In this document: in pieces, positions 1-43,247 of the stretch
How positions within the stretch are numbered: the stretch's first letter is position 1
Layout of the letters: every line of letters starts with the position of its first letter
Origin: Planctomycetia bacterium
GTDB lineage: Bacteria; Planctomycetota; Planctomycetia; Pirellulales; UBA1268
Direction: 5' to 3'
NCBI GenBank assembly: GCA_021414115.1
Contig: JAIOPD010000131.1
Coordinates: 1 to 52,012 of the forward strand
DNA: 52,012 nt
Made by a program: the position numbers and the translations under genes
Notes under the pieces: model-generated
Told to the model about the DNA's origin: nothing
The model's database searches: none
Seen by the model: the letters and a program-made list of their open reading frames with translations, nothing else

Positions 1-113
1 CCTGCGCTTCGGCATCCTGCCTGCGCTGGCCAGCAACGCCGGCTCTCGGGGCACGGGCAGCCCCTCGCGGGTACTCGAAGGCCGGGGAAGCCCGGAGCGC
101 GAGCGACGGGTAG
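1..113 (+). repeat. dispersed repeat module, inverted partner of 578-692
   Basis: Bases 1-72 are identical to the reverse complement of 621-692. After a short divergent stretch both copies continue into the core ggaagcccggagcgcgagcg followed by acgggta. The module may extend left beyond the window. Related sequence is seen at 43020-43148. Confidence 0.85.
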
Positions 114-577: not shown

Positions 578-692
578 TTTACCCGTCGCTCGCGCTCCGG
601 GCTTCCCGAACGCAATCGACACCCGCGAGGGGCTGCCCGTGCCCCGAGAGCCGGCGTTGCTGGCCAGCGCAGGCAGGATGCCGAAGCGCAGG
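578..692 (-). repeat. dispersed repeat module, inverted copy of 1-113
   Basis: On the minus strand this reads like 1-113: 72 identical bases, about a dozen divergent bases, then the GGAAGCCCGGAGCGCGAGCG core. Together the two copies form an inverted pair of about 115 bp around the transposase remnant. Confidence 0.85.
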
Positions 693-910
693 CGTGCATC
701 GAGTGAGTGAAGCCCAGGATGGGCGGAACGAACGTCGGGCTCTCGGGGCACGGGCAGCACCGACCCACCACTCGGGCCCCCTTCAGGCGACACACCAAAA
801 TCGGATGCGCCCGAGATCGCGTGTTCCCCCCGCTGGCGCTTGGGGTTTTCATGCGGGAGACGCGGTTCGGCACGCCACCCCCGGTGGACGTGGCTTAGCT
901 CAGGCCGCGA

Positions 911-8043: not shown

Positions 8044-9068
8044 GTGAGGATGCGTGACTCCGAAGCCGACCGCTACTCCCGCCAGATCCGCTTCGCACCG
8101 CTGGGCCCGGACGGTCAGGTAAGACTCGCGGCCGCGCGTGTCGCCGTCGTCGGCTGCGGGGCGCTCGGGAGTGTCGTCGCCATGACGCTGGCCCGGGCCG
8201 GCGTCGGATTTCTACGGCTCATCGATCGGGATGTCCCGGAAACCTCGAACCTTCCTCGGCAGGTGCTCTTCGACGAGGCCGACGTCGCCGCGGGACTGCC
8301 GAAGGCGGTCGCCGCCGCCGGGCAACTCGGCAGGATCAACTCCGGAGTCTCGATCGAGCCGATCGTCGCCGATCTCACGGCGGCCAACGTCGGCGAACTG
8401 CTCGGCGGCGTCGACGTGATCGTCGATGGGACCGACAACTTCGAGGCCCGGTTTCTGGTGAACGAGTTTGCCTGCCGGCACGGCGTGCCCTGGGTGCACG
8501 GCGGCGCGATCGGCGCCGAAGGCCGGGTGATGACGATCGTGCCCGGCCGCACCGCCTGCCTGAGGTGCCTGATCCCGGAACCGCCGGCGCCGGGGGCACT
8601 GCCCACGTGTGACACCGCGGGGATCATCGGCCCGGCGGCGGTCGTGGTCGGCGCCGTCGAGGCGGCGGAGGCGATGAAGCTCATCGCGGGCGCCGCTGAG
8701 AAGACCGGCAATCGGCTGCTCGTCTGTGATCTCTGGGACAACGTCTGGCGGACGGTCGACGTGTCGTCGCTTGGGGCCACGGGCTGCCCCACGTGTCGGA
8801 GCGGCGACTATCCTTGGCTCGAGGGCCGGCTCGGCGCCCGGCCGACACCGCTTTGCGGTCGCGACGCCGTGCAGGTGCCGTCTTCCGGCGGCGCGGTCGA
8901 TCTGGCAGCGCTTGCCATGCGGCTCGCGGCCGTGGGGAGCGTCGTCGCGAACCGCTGGATCGTGCGGGCCGAGGTGGAGCAGGGGATCCAGCTGTCGGTG
9001 TTCGCCGATGGCCGCGCGATCGTGTCGGGCACGCGCGAGGAGGCCAGGGCCCGGGCGATCGTCTCCCG

Positions 9069-9084
<16 letters not shown>
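8044..9084 (+). CDS. ThiF/MoeB/HesA-family adenylyltransferase (E1-like)
   Basis: The 346-aa E1-like protein would adenylate the C-terminus of a ubiquitin-like sulfur carrier (ThiS or MoaD type). The ATP-binding glycine loop VGCGALGS is at residues 36-43, followed by LRLIDRDVPETSNLPRQ, the conserved Asp and Arg/Gln region. DGTDNFEARFL and the zinc-ligand pairs CLRC and CPTC are present. Residues after the second pair form an extra C-terminal domain of about 90 aa that resembles neither rhodanese nor MoaD. GTG at 8044 gives the longest form; ATG at 8050 is a plausible alternative. No thiS, moaD or thiG lies nearby, so the pathway is open. The 3' end overlaps the convergent ABC ATPase gene by 16 nt. 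Confidence 0.88.
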
Positions 9085-10585
<1,501 letters not shown>

Positions 10586-24747: not shown

Positions 24748-24750
24748 GCC

Positions 24751-24938
24751 CGGGATGGCGAGCTCCCACGATCAGCCCGCCGGGGCCACGAGGGCCCGGC
24801 GTCACGCAGGACTGCTCGCCGGGATGGCGAGCTCCCCCGATCAGCCCGCCGGGGCCACGAGGGCCCGGCGTCACGCAGGACTGCTCGCCGGGATGGCGAG
24901 CTCCCACGATCAGCCCGCCGGGGCCACGAGGGCCCGGC
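24751..24938. repeat. 69-bp tandem repeat, 2.7 copies, each with a GC-rich hairpin
   Basis: Units start with cgggatggcgagctccc at 24751, 24820 and 24889, a period of 69 bp (23 codons). Copies 1 and 2 differ at one base (ccacga versus ccccga); the third copy ends in ggcgggc instead of ggcgtcac. Each unit contains cgccggggcc and ggcccggcg arms around a short loop. The third forms a perfect 10-bp stem and sits where the pre-insertion terminator of ssrA would lie. Confidence 0.85.
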
Positions 24939-24948
24939 GGGCGTGAAG

Positions 24949-24968
24949 TGGAGGCGAGGGGAGTCGAA
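24949..24968. promoter_or_regulatory. attL: attL (duplicated ssrA 3' end)
   Basis: It is identical over 20 bp to 36930-36949 and differs immediately on both sides (g versus a before, g versus c after). It equals the T-arm and acceptor end of the tmRNA without the rest of the gene. Confidence 0.9.
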
Positions 24969-25892
24969 GTTCTACAGAATACCCCGAGAAAAACCCCGGT
25001 CCAGCATCAAGGCGGCGCAGAAAACGGCGCACTTCCGTTGGACGCCGCGGATCTCGCCCTCGTCATCAGACTTCTGAGCCGTCTGACGCGTGACCAGGCC
25101 CAAGCCCTCGTCACGCTCGCTCAGGCGATGAACTCGACCCACTCGGCGGGGTCGTGATTCTTTTCCATCGCACGGGCGAGCGCGATGGCCTCCGGCCGGG
25201 GCGGCACGACTCCAGCTCGTCGGGGACGGCTTCCGTCGTGCCGAGAAGACAAAAAGCGGAGGTCGGGCATCCTGCCCTCCCGCTGTTCTCTGACAGCGGC
25301 TAGCCCTCGATGGTGTTTTCTGCGGGGGGCTCATCAGGGGGAGGGGGGCTCATCTCCGCATCCGGCATCGTCTCGCCCCCCTCCCCCTCGCCGCCCCCCG
25401 CGATGCGGCATTCGCCGCGCCCCCGGCTTCCCCCTCCCCCATAGCGGAATCGAGGGCATCCCCGCCGCTGCAGGCCGCATCCTGCGGCTAGCGGAGCGGC
25501 CGCAAGCGGCCGCCAGAGGGCATCCTGCCCGCTTTCGCGGCGGCATCCTGCCGCCGAGCCTCCGCCGCCGTTGTGGGTGCAGTGATTGAGATAGAGGCCC
25601 GCGGCGGCGGCTTCATGTCGCGGCGCGAGTTGGCAGTGCTCCGCTCCCGCGGCGGCGGCTCTCAGGGGCTCATCCTCAGCCCCGTTCGCCGCGTGCCGCG
25701 TCCGCTCCCGTTGTGCTCAGCGAGGCTGCAAGCCCCGGATAGCGACCTCGAGCGTTCTCAGCGGAGCAGCCGGTTCCCGGCTGCGGCATGGCATCCTGCC
25801 GCTGTCAGCGGCGGCATCGTGCCGCCGCGGCAACGCTGCACGTTAACGTGCCCTCGTGTGTATCCTGAAATCAGTCCCCAGGCACCCACTAC
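24969..25892. other. island left end: possible integrase tail codons, then hairpin-rich non-coding stretch
   Basis: From 24969 to 25157 there is an open frame of 62 codons that continues the integrase frame if the element is circular (see findings). From about 25158 to 25892 I see no gene, but a series of short hairpins with a constant gcatcctgc centre and GC-rich spacers. The FRG gene begins at 25893. Confidence 0.6.
25265..25828. repeat. scattered short hairpins with constant gcatcctgc centre
   Basis: Copies: gggcatcctgccc (25265-25277), gccgcatcctgcggc (25474-25488), gggcatcctgccc (25518-25530), cggcggcatcctgccgccg (25538-25556), ggcatcctgcc (25790-25800) and a variant gcggcatcgtgccgc (about 25811-25825). 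The flanking bases change but stay complementary. The same centre appears in the ssrA terminator hairpin (36897-36907). Confidence 0.7.
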
Positions 25893-26774
25893 ATGCCGCA
25901 AGCGTGGCGCGATTTCTGCGAAAGCCCCAGCGACCTACAGTCGCTCCTAGCGACGCTTTCCGGCCTCCAGAGCCGATTTGAGGCTATCGGCGTTCGCAAC
26001 CGTTCTGCGGACTTGGCCTTCCGTGGCATGGCCAACGCCCAGCACGACCTCAAAACCTCCCTCCAATACAGAGCAGGCCTCGAAGTCCACGACCAACAGC
26101 GTTTGGACTCTGAACAACAACTCGTGGAGACATTCCGAGCACGCGCCGCGAGATTCCTTGGGAACTTGGATCGCGTCTATCTGCGAGTCCCGCCGGCCGG
26201 CAACTGCCAGTTTCATCTCGAACAAAATGCCCTTGTTTGGGACGATCCAACAATCTGGGGCGCGTTAGCCGTAGCGCGGCACTACGGGGTTCCAACCCGG
26301 CTCCTTGATTGGACTCGCAACATCTCTGTGGCAGCGTTCTTTGCCGCATGCCGTGAACCCGACGCAGACGGCGCGGTCTGGTGGTTTTCGCAGCCCGAGT
26401 TTCACAAGGCCGTGCATGAGCAGTGGGATGGCTGGGGCGTTCCACCAAACCCGGAGACTCAACAGCGGTCTATGGAACAAAAAGCCTTCGCTGTCGATGC
26501 AGCGCCGTGGATATCAAATATCTACTACCCGTTGCCATTTCCTCGTCTTGAAAAACAGGCGGGTTTTTTTACTGCGTGCGGTCGCCTCGACATGGTTCAC
26601 AACACCGCGATCGACGACCTAGCCGAAGTCCGCATTACCCGAGGGATCGTTATCGTTCGTCGCGAAATCAAAGAACAGCTTCTCGACCATCTTGAATCAA
26701 TCGGTTTACGGGCATCGACCATCGATTACCCTGGCGCCGATGTGGAAGCCGCCGCCGTTCTTGGGGAACGCTGA
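25893..26774 (+). CDS. FRG domain-containing protein
   Basis: The 293-aa protein carries the FRG domain, named for its Phe-Arg-Gly motif: LAFRGMANAQHDLKTSLQ at about residues 41-58. The second hallmark ALAVARHYGVPTRLLDWTRN is near residue 123-142, followed by ISVAAFFAA. The biochemical role of FRG is not established; such proteins are common in defence islands and near restriction systems. The start is an ATG at 25893 without a strong Shine-Dalgarno. The gene stands 147 nt upstream of the restriction-methyltransferase, on the same strand. Base composition is lower in GC than the flanking chromosome, consistent with transfer. Confidence 0.85.
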   Translation: MPQAWRDFCESPSDLQSLLATLSGLQSRFEAIGVRNRSADLAFRGMANAQHDLKTSLQYRAGLEVHDQQRLDSEQQLVETFRARAARFLGNLDRVYLRVPPAGNCQFHLEQNALVWDDPTIWGALAVARHYGVPTRLLDWTRNISVAAFFAACREPDADGAVWWFSQPEFHKAVHEQWDGWGVPPNPETQQRSMEQKAFAVDAAPWISNIYYPLPFPRLEKQAGFFTACGRLDMVHNTAIDDLAEVRITRGIVIVRREIKEQLLDHLESIGLRASTIDYPGADVEAAAVLGER

Positions 26775-26921: not shown

Positions 26922-29806
26922 ATGACGCTATCCCTCAGCCCGCAAGCCTTCATCGCCAAGTGGAAGCCGGCCGACTTGTCGGAGCGGGCGGCCTGCCAGG
27001 AGCATTTCATCGACCTGTGCCGGATGCTCGGCCACCCAACGCCAGCAGAGGCCGACCCGACGGGCGAACAATACACATTTGAGCGCGGCGTCGAGAAGTC
27101 CGAGGGCGGCAACGGCTGGGCCGACGTGTGGAAACGCGGCTACTTCGGCTGGGAATACAAGGGCAAGCACAAGGACTTGAAGGCGGCCTATTCGCAGCTC
27201 CAGCTCTACCGCGAATCGCTTGAAAACCCGCCGCTCTTGGTCGTCTGCGACCTGAACCGCTTCGAGGTTCACACCAACTTTACGGGCTCCGCGAAGCGGG
27301 TCTACGCCTTCGATCTCGACTCTCTCGCCCATCCGGTCAATCTCGGCATTCTCCGCAAGCTGTTTCATGATCCGCAGGCGCTGCGGCCCGAGCAAACGAC
27401 AGAAGACATCACCGTCGAGGCGGCAAAGACCTTTGGCATCATGATCGACGGCTGGCGCGACCGCGGGATCGCCGGGCAGGCCGCGGCACACTTCGCGATG
27501 AAGCTGCTCTTCTGCATGTTTGCCGAAGACATTGACCTGCTCCCCGACCGTACTTTCCGCTCCACGATCGAGGGTGCGAAGAAAGACCCCACGCGGCTGG
27601 CCGGCCGTCTGAAATCGCTTTTCGACTGCATGTCGAGCGGTGGCGACTACGGCCCCGTATCAGTGCCCTGGTTCAACGGCGGGTTGTTCAAGCCGGACGA
27701 AGCTGTGCCCGCGCTGCTCAGCACCGACGTGGAGCGGCTCATCACGCTCAATGCCTACGATTGGGCGAGCGTCGAGCCGAGTATTTTCGGCACCTTGTTC
27801 GAGCGCACCCTCGACCCCGCGAAGCGCTCACAAATCGGCGCGCACTACACGAGCCGCGAAGACATCATCACGCTTCTCGAACCGGTGCTCATGGCTCCGC
27901 TGCGGCGGGAGTGGGAGGAGGTGCAAGACCGCGCCGCAGCCCTGTGGGCAAAGCTCGCCGACAAACGAACTGCCAAAAAGGCCCGAAAGGAACTCGACAC
28001 GCTGCTCCGGCATTTCGTGGAGCGCCTCGCCGCAGTCAAGATCCTCGATCCTGCCTGCGGCTCGGGGAACTTTCTGTATGTGGCCATCACGCTGCTCCTG
28101 GACCTCGAAAAGGAGGTAATCGCCAAGGCTGCGACGTACGGCACCACGCTCCTGCCGCAAGTCCGCCCGACCCAACTCTACGGGCTCGAGATCAATACCT
28201 ACGCCGCCGAACTGGCGCAGGTCGTCATCTGGATCGGATACCTGCAGTGGATGCACGCGAACGGGTTCAACGCGCCCCGCGACCCCATCCTCGAACCGTT
28301 GACAACGATTCGGAACACCGATGCAATCATCGACCTCAAGGATCCCGTCAACCCAAAGGACACCGAGTGGCCGAAGGCCGACGTTATTGTGGGAAACCCA
28401 CCGTTTTTGGGCGGGAAGCGACTACGGGCCGAACTCGGGGATCGCTACGTAGAGGCCCTTTTCTCGGTGTATCGCGACCGCGTGCCGCGAGAAGGCGACC
28501 TTGTCGCGTATTGGTTTGAGAAGGCGCGCGAGTGCATTGCGGGAGGCCAGGCTACAAAGGCCGGGCTTCTCGCGACTCAATCGATACGCATGAGTGCGAG
28601 CCGGCCTGTGCTGGATCGAATCAAAGCGTCCGGCGACATTTTTATGGCGTGGAGCGATCGGCCGTGGGTTTTAGACGGCGCCGATGTCCGCGTGTCGATA
28701 GTCGGTTTTGATGACGGCACAGAACGCCACCGAAGGCTCGATGGCCGTGAGGTATCTTCGATAAATGCGAACTTGACTACGGCTTCAGACGTTACGACGG
28801 CTCGTCCGCTGCCGCAGAATCGAAATCGGTGCTTCATGGGTGACACGAAGGGCGGGGCATTTGATATTTGCGAGGATGCCGCAAGACGCTTCCTCGAACA
28901 GGCCAATCCACACGGACGCCCGAATAGCGACGTTGTCGTTCCTTGGATGAACGCGATGGATGTGACGAGGCGAAACAGATGGATGTGGATCATCGATTTC
29001 GGTGTGGACCGAGTCGAGAATGATTCCGCAAAGTACGAAGCTCCATTCGAGCAACTTCGCCGCGATGTTTACCCGATTCGCAAGGACAACAAGCGTGCAG
29101 TTTATCGGGATCGCTGGTGGATTCACGTTGAGCCACGGCGTCAGCTTCGCGGTGCTCTGGCCGGCTAGAGCGATTCATTGTCGTTCCCTATGTCGCGAAA
29201 CATCGGCTCATCTCGTGGCTGCGTCCTCCCGTCCTTCCGGACCACAAGCTTTTTGTCGTGGCCACTTCAAGTGACGTTGATTTTGGAGTCCTCCACTCTC
29301 GCAGCCATGAAGTCTGGGCTCTTGCTACTTCATCACGGCACGGCGTTGGAAACGACCCGACGTACAATTCCACCACGTGCTTTGAGCCATTTCCATTTCC
29401 AAGCCCGAACGATGCTCAACGTAATGCGATAGCAGCGGCGGCCAAGGAACTCGACACGCTCCGCACTAATTGGCTGAACCCGCCTGAGTGGACGCAGGAG
29501 GAAGTGCTGACGTTCCCCGGTTCCGCCGATGGCCCGTGGTCACGATACGTGTCGGAGGCTAACGCGGATGGCATAGGGACCGTCCGCTATCCGCGCACCA
29601 TTCCGGCCGACGCCACGGCCGCAAAAAAGCTCGCAAAGCGGACGCTCACGAACCTCTACAACGAACGACCGACCTGGCTCGACCTCGCCCACAAGCGGCT
29701 CGACGAAGCCGTCTTCGCGGCCTACGGCTGGCCGACCACCCTCTCCGACGAAGATCTCCTCTCCCGCCTCCTGGTCCTGAACCTGGAGCGGGCCGCGGCG
29801 AAGTGA
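26922..29806 (+). pseudogene. Type IIL (MmeI-like) restriction-methyltransferase, frameshifted
   Basis: A single polypeptide of about 960 aa would combine cleavage, methylation and target recognition. The N-terminal nuclease has Asp68, Glu78 and Lys80 (GWADVWKRG then GWEYK), the D-x9-E-x-K spacing of MmeI-type enzymes. The helical linker precedes the N6-adenine methyltransferase with SAM motif LDPACGSGNFLYVA (about residue 376) and catalytic NPPF (about 491). The first frame stops at 29166-29168 after RRQLRGALAG. In the -1 frame the sequence continues from 29165 as LERFIVVPYVAKHRL and runs without a stop to 29806, ending LLVLNLERAAAK. A single lost C in ggccta restores the whole. The break lies in the C-terminal recognition region. 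It may be inactivation, phase variation or a sequencing error. Confidence 0.85.
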
Positions 29807-33323: not shown

Positions 33324-33524
33324 ATGACGACGAAGTTATCTCTCCGGCCGCGTGAAGCGGCCCGCGCCCTCGGGGTCTCCGAGCGGTGGCTTTGGGAAAA
33401 GACGAAGACAGGGGAGATCCCCTGCCTGAAGGCAGGCCGATGCACGCTCTACCCCGTCGCCATGCTCGAGGAGTGGCTGCGCAGCCGAGCGGCCCGCCAG
33501 CAGGAAGGCGGTGAGCAGTCATGA
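33324..33524 (+). CDS. small helix-turn-helix protein, excisionase/AlpA-like
   Basis: The 66-aa protein reads MTTKLSLRPREAARALGVSE, then RWLWEKTKTGEIPCLKAG and TLYPVAMLEEWLRSRAA. This is the MerR-like winged HTH found in excisionases and AlpA regulators (sequence pattern REAA..LGVS...l......g.IP....g....y....l..wl). Such proteins bend DNA at attachment sites and favour excision. It is coupled to the primase gene through an ATGA at 33521. Confidence 0.82.
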   Translation: MTTKLSLRPREAARALGVSERWLWEKTKTGEIPCLKAGRCTLYPVAMLEEWLRSRAARQQEGGEQS

Positions 33525-35557
33525 GCCACGACCCCGTCAACCTCGTGCTGACGCGCCTGCGGGAGCGGGGCCACGAGCCCCGCCAGGCCGGCAGCGGCTG
33601 GACCTCGACATGCCCTGCCCACGCGGACACCAGCCCGTCCCTATCGGTCGGCGTCGGCGACAACGGCAACGCGGTGATCCACTGCCATGCCGGCTGCGAC
33701 CTCGGCTCCATCGTGGCCGCCTTGCGGCTCGAAAAGAGAGAGTTGTTCGCCGACGGAACCACCCCGCCCGCGCCGCGCCAGAGGATCCGACGGCCGCCGC
33801 GGGCGTTTCCAACCTGGGAGACGGCCGCGGAGTCGGTTTCCCAGGGCCGTGGCCGACCAGCCATGACGTGGGAATACCGTGACGCCCACGACACCGCGGT
33901 GGCCATCGTCTGCCGCTGGAACCTTCCGGACGGAAAGAAGGACATCCGGCCCGTGTCGCGCCAACCGGACGGCACCTGGGCCGCTGTGGGCATGCAGGAG
34001 CCCCGCCCGCTGTATCGCCTTCCGGAACTTGCCCGCGCCGAAACGGTCTACGTCTGCGAAGGCGAGAAGGCTGCCGACGCGCTCCGGAGCCTGGGGCTTA
34101 CGGCGACCACGAGCAGTTTCGGTGCGAAAAGCGCCCGCAAGACCGACTGGGCGGCGCTGGCCGGCAAGAGCGTCGTGATCGTTCCTGACCACGACGACGA
34201 GGGCGCGGTCTACGCCGCCGACGTGCTCCGGCTCGCCACCGACGCCGGTGCCAAGAGCGTGGTGATCGTGCGGCTCGCCGACATCTGGCACGGGATCGAG
34301 CCGGGCGACGACGCGTATGACTGGATCGAGGGCCACGACGCCGCCGACCCCGCGGATCTCGTGTCGATGCTCCAACAGCTTGCCGTCAACCCTCGCCAGG
34401 CCGCCCCGACGGAAGGTCCGGTGCTCGTGTGCATGGCATCTGTCCTGCCGCGGGACGTTCGCTGGCTGTGGCCAGGCCGGGTGCCGCTGGGGCGGCTAAC
34501 GCTACTCGTGGGCCGGCCGAAGGAAGGCAAGTCGTTCTTGACCACCGACATGGCCTCGCGGGTAACGACCGGCACGCCGTGGCCAGATGGAACTGACTGC
34601 CCCAAAGGTGCGGTGATTTTCATCTCCGCAGAGGACGACCCAGCCGACACGATTCGGCCGCGGCTGGACGCCCACTATGCAGATCCCTCGCGTGTTCACC
34701 TGCTGAGCGCCGTCAGGCTCGTCAACGACAAAGGCAAGCCCGAGGAAGTGATGTTTACGCTCGCGGATGCCGCCGCCCTGGAGGCGGCAATCGCTGCGGT
34801 CCCGGATTGCAGGCTCGTGGTGATCGACCCTGTCGGCAGCTTCCTCGGCGGCCGGACGGATGCCCATCGAGACAACGAGGTCCGGGCGGTACTGGCTCCC
34901 GTGGCGCGGCTGGCCGAGAAATACGACACGGCCGTCCTGGTCGTGTGTCACACGCGGAAAGCGGCCGGTACGAACGCCGACGAGCAGACTCTTGGTTCCC
35001 GCGGGTTTGTCGGCATCGCCCGCGCCGTGTGGCACATGAGTCGTGATCGCGAGAATAAGTCGCGACGGCTCCTCCTGCCCGGCGGGCAAAATCTGGCGGG
35101 TGAGCCGACGGGCCTGGCGTTCACGATCAGCGGCGAGCCCGCGCGACTTTCCTGGGAGCGGGAGCCCGTGGCGATGACGGCCGACGATGCCTTGACCGGC
35201 GAGCGCCGCGCCGGCGGAAAGGCTTCTCGCTCGAAACCCGGCCCTGCGCCCCAGCGGCGCGACGAGGCCGCGGTCTGGCTATCCGGCATTCTCGCTACCG
35301 GCCCCCGGCCGGCCGCCGACCTCATCGAATCGTGGACGAACGGCGAGGGCGGCTCCAAGAAAACGCTGGTGCGTGCGAAGCAGAGCCTCGGGGTCGAGGC
35401 GTATCGCCCCAACAACCCCGGCCCGTGGTGGTGGAAGCTCCCGCCCGAAGGCGACGCGACTGAGATTCAGGAGCCCACCGAGCCGGGAGCAACGCGGCAC
35501 GGCCCTCTGGACTTCCTGGGCAAAACTCCGGGGTTGTACGCGTTTCCGGAATCCTGA
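33521..35557 (+). CDS. primase-helicase (CHC2-like zinc, Toprim and RepA-like ATPase)
   Basis: The 678-aa protein combines priming and unwinding functions for autonomous replication of the element. The N-terminal zinc region holds CPAH and HCHAGC. The Toprim domain has YVCEGEKAADAL (about residues 182-193) and the metal site VIVPDHDDEGAVY. The RecA/AAA_25 ATPase follows, with Walker A LLVGRPKEGKSFL (about residue 327) and Walker B RLVVIDPVGSFLGG, plus VLVVCHTRKAA. A basic C-terminal region ends LYAFPES. It shares a 4-nt overlap with the HTH gene. This domain set is typical of satellite-like elements and phages. Confidence 0.87.
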   Translation: MSHDPVNLVLTRLRERGHEPRQAGSGWTSTCPAHADTSPSLSVGVGDNGNAVIHCHAGCDLGSIVAALRLEKRELFADGTTPPAPRQRIRRPPRAFPTWETAAESVSQGRGRPAMTWEYRDAHDTAVAIVCRWNLPDGKKDIRPVSRQPDGTWAAVGMQEPRPLYRLPELARAETVYVCEGEKAADALRSLGLTATTSSFGAKSARKTDWAALAGKSVVIVPDHDDEGAVYAADVLRLATDAGAKSVVIVRLADIWHGIEPGDDAYDWIEGHDAADPADLVSMLQQLAVNPRQAAPTEGPVLVCMASVLPRDVRWLWPGRVPLGRLTLLVGRPKEGKSFLTTDMASRVTTGTPWPDGTDCPKGAVIFISAEDDPADTIRPRLDAHYADPSRVHLLSAVRLVNDKGKPEEVMFTLADAAALEAAIAAVPDCRLVVIDPVGSFLGGRTDAHRDNEVRAVLAPVARLAEKYDTAVLVVCHTRKAAGTNADEQTLGSRGFVGIARAVWHMSRDRENKSRRLLLPGGQNLAGEPTGLAFTISGEPARLSWEREPVAMTADDALTGERRAGGKASRSKPGPAPQRRDEAAVWLSGILATGPRPAADLIESWTNGEGGSKKTLVRAKQSLGVEAYRPNNPGPWWWKLPPEGDATEIQEPTEPGATRHGPLDFLGKTPGLYAFPES

Positions 35558-35647
35558 GGCCCCACATGACCACGTTCTTGAAACCCGGCCACCTGCAATG
35601 GCCGCTCCGCCGGTAGAGTGGCGAATCAAATCCGCGAGGACACACGC

Positions 35648-37066
35648 ATGGCATCACTCATCAAAGACCCCAACGGCTCGTTTCGCATCGAGGTTGTAGT
35701 CCCCGACGGCAGCCGCAAACGCATCCGGCTCGGCAAGCTGCCGGTGAAGACCGCCGAATCGTGGCACCGCCGCGTCGAGGCCCTGGTGAGCGATCTCGCG
35801 GCCGGGGAGCCTCATGGCCGTGACCTCGCGTCCTGGCTGGCAGAACTCCCCCTCAAGCTCCACGAGCGGCTGGTGAAGGCCGGTCTCGCAGATCGGCGCG
35901 CGGCAACCACAACCGTGACCGTGAGGCCGTTCCTGGCGGCGTGGCTTGAAGCGAGGAAACCGGAATACAAGGTGGCGAGCGTCCGGGCCTGGCAGCAGGT
36001 CGTTGACGGACTGACGGAGTTTCTGGGAACCGCCTATCCGATCGCCGAGGTGACTCCCGAAAAAGCCGAGGAGTTTCGGCAACGCATGATCGGCGATGGT
36101 CTGCGGGCCACCACGATCCACAAGCGGCTCCAGCACGCGCGGCTGATGTTTGACCACGCCAAGCGAAAGAAACTCCTGGCCGAGAACCCCTTTGAATACG
36201 TCCGCCATCGGCCCGGGGACGCCTCCGAGCGACGGGCCTACGTCGAGGCAGCGGACGTGCGCCGGGTGATCGACCACGCCCCGAATCAAGACTGGCGGCT
36301 TTTGATCGCCCTCTCGCGTTTCGCGGGCTTGCGCGTGCCGAGCGAGGCCATGAGCCTGCGGTGGCAGGACATCGACTGGGATCGCGGCCGAATCACGGTT
36401 CCCTGCCCGAAACTCGAGCACCTGGCCGGCAGGGGCTACCGCGTGATCCCGCTCTTTGCCGACGTGCGGCCGTATCTCGAGGAGGCATGGGATCAAGCGC
36501 CGGAGGGTGCGGAGTACGTCTTCGCCGAGGAGTACCGTCGTCGCGCCCACGGCAAGCACGGGTGGGCCGGCTGCAACCTGCGCTCGACGCTCGAAAAGAT
36601 CATCAAGCGGGCCAAGGTGTCGCAGTGGACGCGGCTCTGGCATTCAATGCGGGCCAGCTGCGAAACCGACCTGGCCCGCGAGTACCCGCTCGCCGTGGTC
36701 GCCAAGTGGCTGGGCAACACGGCCGCCGTCGCGATGAGGCACTACGTGGATGTCACCGATGCCGACTTCGAGCGTGCCGCTGTCGCCGGCAGCAAACAGG
36801 CGCACAAAGCGGCGCAGCAAGTTCCCGCGAGTCGGTGTTTTGACTCGCAGGCCGAATCGTCCGCGCATGAAAAAGCCCCGGCTGTGCGGGGTCTCGCAGC
36901 ATCCTGCGATCCCCTGCACAACCGGGGCATGGAGGCGAGGGGAGTCGAACCCCTGTCCCGTGATGTTTCAGCACGAACGTCTACGTGTGTGTCCGGTCAA
37001 CTTGAGTCTCGCCCGCGCGTCCCCGGCCGACAGGGTGCGTCACGGGCCAGCCCGGAACTTTTTTAG
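35648..37066 (+). CDS. int: tyrosine site-specific integrase, reading across attR into antisense ssrA
   Basis: The 472-aa recombinase integrates the element into ssrA. An N-terminal arm-binding part is followed by a SAM-like core-binding domain (PEYKVASVRAWQQVVDGLTE). Catalytic residues visible are Arg in RFAGLRVPSEAMSLRW, Lys near PCPKLEH, His-x2-Arg in LWHSMRASCETDL, and the Tyr nucleophile in AVAMRHYVDV; the second His position appears as Asn (WLGNTAAV), a tolerated variant. The ATG at 35648 follows GAGGACACACGC. The last 39 codons, from MEARGVE at 36929, lie on attR and antisense tmRNA. In the excised circle the tail would be different (62 codons from 24969, total 496 aa). The tail before att encodes the ssrA terminator hairpin on the other strand. 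Confidence 0.9.
   Translation: MASLIKDPNGSFRIEVVVPDGSRKRIRLGKLPVKTAESWHRRVEALVSDLAAGEPHGRDLASWLAELPLKLHERLVKAGLADRRAATTTVTVRPFLAAWLEARKPEYKVASVRAWQQVVDGLTEFLGTAYPIAEVTPEKAEEFRQRMIGDGLRATTIHKRLQHARLMFDHAKRKKLLAENPFEYVRHRPGDASERRAYVEAADVRRVIDHAPNQDWRLLIALSRFAGLRVPSEAMSLRWQDIDWDRGRITVPCPKLEHLAGRGYRVIPLFADVRPYLEEAWDQAPEGAEYVFAEEYRRRAHGKHGWAGCNLRSTLEKIIKRAKVSQWTRLWHSMRASCETDLAREYPLAVVAKWLGNTAAVAMRHYVDVTDADFERAAVAGSKQAHKAAQQVPASRCFDSQAESSAHEKAPAVRGLAASCDPLHNRGMEARGVEPLSRDVSARTSTCVSGQLESRPRVPGRQGASRASPELF
36870..36928 (-). terminator. Rho-independent terminator of ssrA, supplied by the island
   Basis: Read on minus, GCCCCGG..TGTGC.GGGG is followed by a GCAGGATGCTGC centre and the returning CCCC.GCACA.CCGGGGC arm, then TTTTT. 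The stem is very long and starts 1 nt after the tmRNA 3' end. All of it lies on the island side of attR, within the integrase C-terminal codons. Confidence 0.85.
36930..36949. promoter_or_regulatory. attR: attR (ssrA 3' end)
   Basis: The 20 bp here complete the T-arm and acceptor of tmRNA and match attL at 24949-24968 exactly. The mature tmRNA 3' end (discriminator A) is at 36930. Confidence 0.9.
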
Positions 37067-37267
37067 CCCCGCCTGTACCAGGCGGTGAGACGGGGCGAGT
37101 CGGATTTGGCGACCGATTGGGAGGCCCTTCCGACTGGGGCCATCGCTCGGGGTTGCTTAGTTAAGCAGCCAGAGAAAACTGAGCTTCGGCAATTGAAGCT
37201 TGGTCGACTTTTAACGTGGCCAGCCGACCAACCACGACACGCAATCCGGTTCCGCTGAAAAACCCCC
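36930..37267 (-). ncRNA. ssrA: transfer-messenger RNA (tmRNA)
   Basis: tmRNA rescues stalled ribosomes and tags the nascent protein. On minus the 3' end reads GGGACAGGGGTTCGACTCCC then CTCGCCTCCA, a tRNA T-arm and acceptor. The tag reading frame ends AEAQFSLAA followed by TAA (stop at 37163-37161). Resumption could be at GCC (tag AEAQFSLAA, from 37190), or further up at the GAC following AAAAGTC, which would give DQASIAEAQFSLAA (from 37205). The 5' end is placed at the GGGGG near 37267, which can pair with the acceptor in six of seven positions; this boundary is approximate. No CCA is encoded after the discriminator A. Confidence 0.85.
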
Positions 37268-42722: not shown

Positions 42723-43247
42723 GGCCGGACTCCTCGGGGGCCGGAAGAGTGGCAGGGGGGCCGCGGCCGGTCAATGCCGGCCGGAACGTGTAAAAGGGCG
42801 TCTTCTCCGCGCTCGCGCTGGGGCTTCCCGGAGCGCATCCGACTGTGGTGGATCGCCTGACGGGGGCCCGAGTGGTGGGTCGGGGCTGTCCGTGCCCCGC
42901 GAGCCGGACGTTCGCTGCGCCCATACGGCTGTCGCGCCGTCGCTGCCGTCGGCTCGGGGCTGCCCGTGCCTCGCGAGCCGGACGTTCGCCTCGGCCCTCC
43001 AGGCCTCGGCTCTCTGCATGTCCGCTGCGCTTCGGCATCCTGCCTTCGCTTGCTCCCATAGCCCGGCTCTTGGGGCACGGGCAGCCCCTCGCGGGTTCTC
43101 GATGGTGTCCGTTGCCGGGGAAGCCCGGAGCGCGAGCGACGGGTAGACGGGTGGCGACGTGTGCCAGCGGCGGGGAGCCGGTTGAGGTTGAGGACGGGGT
43201 TCCCGTGCTCGCGCTGGAGAGCGCGTCCGAGTGAGAGGCCGCCTGCG
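42723..43247. other. intergenic stretch with dispersed-repeat cluster
   Basis: No gene is seen over these 525 bp. Most of the stretch is repeat: a companion arm at 42806-42830, a block at about 42855-42910 matching the reverse complement of about 725-795, a block at 43020-43095 related to 1-72, and the core at 43117-43148. A degenerate companion appears near 43190-43212. Confidence 0.7.
42806..43148. repeat. long composite dispersed repeat (companion to core)
   Basis: This is the most complete copy seen: the companion arm gcgctcgcgctggggcttcc opens the element and the core ggaagcccggagcgcgagcg closes it in inverted orientation. Between them are blocks that occur elsewhere in the window as separate pieces. 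The inverted ends make it look like a MITE or BIME. Confidence 0.75.

Follow-up and report, generated by a model that had tools for sequence, protein, structure and literature searches.

The window, i.e. the whole stretch of 52,012 nucleotides from a Planctomycetia contig that was analyzed here, raises the question of why a group of short palindromes should share one centre while their flanks differ, and what keeps them in this form. According to the original prediction, at least five hairpins hold GCATCCTGC constant between covarying flanks, the covariation points to selection for the folded form (as RNA or as single-stranded DNA), and the centre is perhaps a site recognized by a protein. Such palindromes with a common centre are indeed present, with GCATCCTGC at 25267, 25477, 25520, 25543, and 25791, the cluster even has a sixth one, GCATCGTGC, within 25808–25828, and the stems are as claimed (GGG/CCC at 25265 and 25518, GCC/GGC at 25474, and CGGCG/CGCCG at 25538–25556). 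The centre was also recovered in the ssrA terminator (as a 9-mer at 36899–36907) and in the dispersed repeats (12, 673–681 on the minus strand, and 43035). Its frequency, proposed as a check, lies beyond chance: the window has 12 GCATCCTGC sites where 0.85 are expected and the highest number among 100 shuffles was three, while the 4.35-Mb genome has 217 vs. 13 for the reversed pattern, and GGCATCCTGCC occurs 100 times genome-wide vs. once for its reversed control. When the central letter was replaced (GGCATC[AGT]TGCC, three letters pooled), 62 sites were counted vs. seven in the control. GGCATCCTGCC is present in all 72 family genomes, with 1–194 sites per genome (control 0–4), the count in some of them barely exceeding the control.

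The GCATCCTGC sites have three sources: coding sequence, mostly in the form of ATC CTG codons, and two repeats designated here as repeat A and element B. About 312 kb of the genome's own DNA, picked around the motif and excluding L010 and L011, were examined, and the 163 of 217 GCATCCTGC sites covered in this way were assigned, with gene calls based on a simple composition score, to A (79), B (6), the ssrA terminator (1), coding-like ORFs (76, two terminator-like hairpins of L012 included), and elsewhere (1). For 40 of the 76 coding-like sites, the reading frame of the gene divides the motif as xGC ATC CTG Cxx, which encodes Ile-Leu. The GGCATCCTGCC sites (n = 100) are distributed over A (78), B (5), coding-like ORFs (16), and elsewhere (1). 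Many of the motif sites, notably in the coding-like share, are hence not hairpins. The two hairpins of L012 (2118 and 2212, minus strand) are neighbours with A/T-flanked stems, the second directly past a stop codon. Another small repeat is found at L015 and L041, two similar loci with inverted GCATCCTGC sites 71 bp apart (1201/1272 in both). Beyond the original prediction, the cluster proved to be a single island element (B), the dispersed copies form a separate family (A), and the ssrA terminator shares the island of B.

Repeat A is a dispersed palindromic element of ~ 190 bp, in which a terminal stem of 26 bp is combined with two arms that form hairpins. Three copies lie in the window, at 2–83 (plus strand, E 5.8e−24, clipped by the window edge), 607–782 (minus strand, E 9.4e−49), and 42950–43123 (plus strand, E 5.8e−44). 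For arm 1, 79 anchored segments (a few of them unrelated) were collected, 14 of other lengths were removed, and the 65 kept were reduced to 40 distinct 20-mers. Two covarying stem pairs, formed in 39/40 and 40/40 sequences and using GC, CG, and TA (in one of them also AT), flank a nearly fixed CATCCTG, in which C, T, C, and G at positions 1, 3, 4, and 7 are each found in 40/40, the second loop C in 37/40, the A in 34/40, and the remaining T in 32/40. A fixed centre does exist, but its nearly constant part is CATCCTG and not GCATCCTGC. When the four stem pairs of the arm were pooled, 158 of 160 cells were paired (mean 117 and maximum 132 in 2000 shuffles, a statistic that ignores the relatedness of the copies). 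The next pair outward is present in just 10/40, and the pair closing the triloop in 33/40. Covariation of the flanks, for which the window itself offers a handful of hairpins, was confirmed with homologues, strongly in A and weakly in B, and in the case of repeat A there is good support for selection of the folded form around a nearly fixed centre.

Whether the fold acts as RNA or as DNA can be narrowed down from the terminal inverted repeats, whose 26-bp stem has at most seven mismatches across 71 copies. G.T mismatches (39) and A.C mismatches (38) are equally common there, next to 118 of other kinds, in a table where part of the swapped pairs could reflect shifts in register. As a selected one-strand RNA should tolerate one of the two types more, this equality favours folding at the DNA level. 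The orientation of A relative to genes likewise lacks the sign of a selected one-strand RNA: 45 copies are flanked by called genes on either side, and of these 25 have convergent neighbours, 12 are TCC-sense, six GGA-sense, and two have divergent neighbours, while the gene pairs of these stretches are convergent in 35 of 135 cases. Of the 79 copies, 37 fell within ORF calls that are probably spurious, given the simple composition score. At one A site, six loci of relatives carry a homologue of the adjacent gene (71–88% DNA identity) and no A, and no nearly identical empty site was found among the relative loci compared. In contigs C30, C36, C40, C58, C67, and C68, a motif site is located ~ 50–310 bases from the contig start, and repeat A thus probably breaks the assembly.

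By its compensatory stem changes A is REPIN-like and by its terminal inverted repeats MITE-like, yet it was not filed as a REP since two further tests failed. Y1 transposases (PF01797), the one transposase family searched, had no match in its own genome (95% complete), while 5/14 control genomes were positive, so that a RAYT/Y1-driven REP was rejected, and a conserved foot tag was not seen in arm 1, where CGTC precedes the stem in five of 40 distinct 20-mers (8/65 copies) and GTAG in none.

Element B is a non-coding hairpin array of ~ 642 bp (25187–25828, minus strand), whose loops read GGA or CGA on the minus strand. In the window it comprises h11 (GGGCATCCTGCCC, 25265–25277; with TTTTT behind it when read on the minus strand, outer pair GC in eight and CG in two of 10 copies), h9 (GCCGCATCCTGCGGC, 25474–25488; one pair CG in eight and GC in two of 10), h7 (again GGGCATCCTGCCC, 25518–25530; outer pair retained in just 3/11), h6 (CGGCGGCATCCTGCCGCCG, 25538–25556), h4 (GGGGCTCATCCTCAGCCCC, 25665–25683; stem identical in 7/7), h2 (GGCATCCTGCC, 25790–25800; innermost pair missing in 5/7), and h1 (GCGGCGGCATCGTGCCGCCGC, 25808–25828), which forms the right end of B. 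A GGA loop is found in h2 (7/7), h7 (10/11), and h11 (9/10), and GGA or TGGA in h6 (9/10); h1 has CGA in six copies and GGA in one, and h9 has CGA in eight of 10, GGA in the window copy, and another loop in the last. Hairpin h3 has no motif, and its loop varies freely (GAA, CCG, GCA) beneath an unchanged stem.

We found B at 13 loci in 9/72 family genomes and 4/12 genera, with a second copy in the own genome (88% identity to the window copy). At the order level 10/396 genomes had matches, the additional one spanning 52 bases, and an exact pattern taken from B matched six records, five from Planctomycetota/Planctomycetaceae and one from Candidatus Kuenenia. Similarity among eight full copies ends at identical points, and their flanks are unrelated, except for L125/L131 on one side and L124/L127 on the other. 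Several shortened copies cover only h6 to h11, and no target duplication was evident by eye in the full and shortened copies compared. An Rfam search of the window at the gathering score retrieved only the 16S rRNA and the tmRNA and nothing on B; none of the seven sub-threshold matches belongs to a Csr/Rsm family, and as these look like chance matches a known RNA family was rejected for B. A phage origin was also rejected, one exact 26-letter pattern with one letter free having no match in IMG/VR. The shortened B copy of L154 adjoins a protein (8091–9116) that matches the small subunit of phage terminases (PF05119).

B folds better than its shuffles (20 each), with z-scores of −6.2 as RNA and −6.5 as DNA. 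In the alignment of 11 of the 13 loci (L127 and L131 were omitted because of runs of N), 94.9% of the named cells pair vs. 27–58% when the alignment is slid. Three pairs changed on both sides, a number matched by 46/500 shuffles, and one of them is the outer pair of h7, unpaired in 8/11 copies; the two-sided changes occupy five cells (4/500 shuffles reach that) and the covariation score is 0.020 vs. 0.005 (reached by 1/500). Covariation is not strong here because the copies are too alike, and the case for selection on the fold is weaker for B than for A.

The window copy of B lies in an island integrated at ssrA, between a 20-bp exact direct repeat at 24949–24968 (the distal att site, plus strand) and its counterpart at 36930–36949 (plus strand) in the 3′ end of the tmRNA gene (36927–37267, minus strand). 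All on the plus strand, this island encodes an FRG-domain protein (25893–26771; PDC-S15, a candidate defence protein), an MmeI-like type IIG restriction-modification frame (26922–29165), an AAA_25 protein (33521–35554, E 8.7e−39), and a tyrosine integrase (35618–36841; Phage_integrase, E 1e−12). The MmeI-like frame stops at 29168 without a match to a target-recognition domain and a further frame follows at 29258–29806; the type IIG gene in 26922–29806 looks split or broken. Just outside the distal att site, a 69-bp unit is present in three head-to-tail copies (24750–24956, the third 81% alike).

Of the 13 B loci, 12 have a tRNA gene or an att-like repeat close by, L150 having neither. Att-like sites with at most three mismatches were seen at L144, L145, L147, and L148, repeated pieces of a tRNA gene at L143 (Gln, at least 40 bp), L154 (Phe, at least 40 bp), and L152 (Glu, 19 bp), and tRNA genes at L146, L149, and L153 (Gln) and at L151 and L152 (Glu). 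An integrase and a direct repeat occur together in the window (20 bp) and at L143 (at least 40 bp); L154 has the repeat (at least 40 bp), and other loci are partial. Scans of 36 distinct chosen proteins from selected neighbouring ORFs (30 vs. Pfam, 20 vs. PADLOC) placed restriction or other defence genes at 9/13 B loci, i.e. the window, L143, L145, L146, L148, L149, L150, L152, and L154; among 10 control proteins beside repeat A only one had a PADLOC match, an RtcR-like regulator. The B copy of L143 has 96.9% identity to the one at L146 and 91.5% to the one at L149 (424 bases), while the type IIG protein of L146 has an identity of 63% to its counterpart at L143 and of 59% to that at L149. Shared ancestry accounts for some of this, since L143 and L146 have a further 3.5 kb in common at 91%, and L146 and L149 have 1.8 kb in common at 83%, a stretch that covers part of B.

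The ssrA terminator (36875–36928, minus strand), with GCAGGATGC in its head, is a GC-rich hairpin followed by a T-run, as expected of an intrinsic terminator. Among 20 tmRNA loci, two of which (L214 and L222) yielded no usable terminator, the GCAGGATGC form was found at six, and these are exactly the ones with the island integrase (94–100% identical). The motif form is hence island sequence, and a conserved host ssrA terminator was rejected as its source. Several of the other tmRNA terminators have CATCC on the sense strand. TCC-type loops were seen in only 6/40 hairpins of 30 loci from the tmRNA search, and a clade-wide loop preference was rejected on this basis. One genome bin (G053) has a pair of tmRNA genes, L209 and L226, each with the island terminator and the island integrase.

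Taken together, we consider the chances about even that A and B are palindromic mobile elements that are retained because they fold as DNA. In this reading A is a REPIN/MITE-like element, and B a compound hairpin array on islands integrated at tRNA genes or ssrA, often with defence genes. The paired cells of arm 1, the equal mismatches, the convergent neighbours, and the six relative loci lacking A speak for it, as do the patchy spread of B, its mostly unrelated flanks, its att or tRNA neighbours, and its h6-to-h11 forms. The negative Y1 search and the lack of a visible target duplication at B speak against it, together with the likeness of the B copies. Their hairpins would form in extruded or single-stranded DNA, where a putative protein would read the centre, moving A or processing the B-bearing islands (by recombination, transfer, or replication). 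That the hairpin centre is a protein-recognition site, as originally suggested, is possible. For B we infer that the hairpins serve as a DNA handle of the islands; the narrower proposal, that B is a common cis-acting site of otherwise different defence islands, an array of single-strand hairpins with loops recognized by some protein of the host or a helper, is tentative and rather unlikely. If true, islands that differ in integrase, integration site, and restriction system would use one handle for their transfer, replication, or exchange of modules. For A, a nearly fixed centre and matched stems in a genome without a Y1 gene would point to another route to recognize and move hairpins. For B, an element common to islands at ssrA and at three different tRNA genes would offer a concrete handle on how defence islands move and swap their content. 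Neither A nor B was seen described in the literature listings that were searched.

Other explanations have to be weighed against this one. The strongest of them, doubtful as it is, sees A and B as two-way terminators or 3′-end stabilizers and the centre as a by-product: most A copies with called neighbours do lie between convergent genes (25/45), B often follows closely behind a gene end (e.g., by 11–27 bp at L143, L146, L149, and L154), the ssrA terminator contains the centre, and h11 of the window runs into TTTTT on the minus strand. A terminator scan, however, flagged no hairpin of B, h11 included, the A consensus has no T-run past its stem, and the nearly fixed centre would be left unexplained, given the few TCC-type loops (6/40) at the 30 other loci. 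It is less probable that the repeats simply spread and that template switching within palindromes matched their arms without selection. Quasi-palindrome correction is a known process, and A and B are both copied repeats, but neutral copying would hardly hold the loop T and C at 40/40 in copies where as many as four pair types occur at two stem positions, nor does it fit the way B follows islands with different payloads across four genera.

The least probable of the three is an RNA function, in which B would titrate CsrA in the manner of a CsrB/Rsm RNA. It arises since the minus-strand centre, CAGGATG, equals the repeated element of CsrB, whose CAGGA(U/A/C)G repeats sit in hairpin loops (PMC7652899, PMC5027483). 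The genome has four csrA matches above the cut-off, three of which are canonical short proteins, and the GGA loops of h2, h6, h7, and h11 are retained in nearly all copies of B. One csrA match (G000:C52:56713–56868, L120) lies within a 610-aa open frame. The CGA loops of h1 (6/7 copies) and h9 (8/10) speak against such an RNA, as do the lack of a detectable sigma-70-like promoter in 24900–26000 and the long GC stems of B, which are unlike CsrA SELEX sites (reported to have mostly at most four contiguous pairs and six-base loops). Co-directional copies of A are GGA-sense in six cases and TCC-sense in 12, the mismatches of its terminal stem are symmetric, and in several of the remaining tmRNA terminators it is the sense strand that reads CATCC. 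A replication origin of the island linked to AAA_25 is not favoured, the gene having been seen only in the window, L145, and L148 in a survey of the 13 B loci, where several stretches end at contig ends.

Among known systems, A comes closest to REPINs and MITEs. Like REP sequences it consists of short extragenic palindromes in many copies per genome, and REPINs are described as commonly having compensatory changes in the two sides of their hairpins (PMC3116915, PMC3733652); in these papers tagged palindromic repeats are also defined by their foot (GTAG/CGTC), the best studied ones being tied to a Y1 transposase. A differs in that its genome lacks a Y1 gene, arm 1 has no conserved foot tag, and the nearly fixed part is the centre and not the foot. 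With MITEs it shares the size (~ 190 bp), the long terminal inverted repeats, and the dispersed occurrence, but it has in addition a pair of inner arms whose centre is nearly fixed. B resembles CsrB/RsmZ in its several GGA-loop hairpins and in having CAGGATG on one strand, in a genome with csrA, whereas two of its hairpins are mostly CGA and the element is longer, with more stable stems. In its setting it resembles the islands integrated at tRNA or tmRNA genes, with a tyrosine integrase, att repeats, and a restriction-modification payload, and it differs from them in that the B islands share a conserved non-coding array despite their different att sites and payloads.
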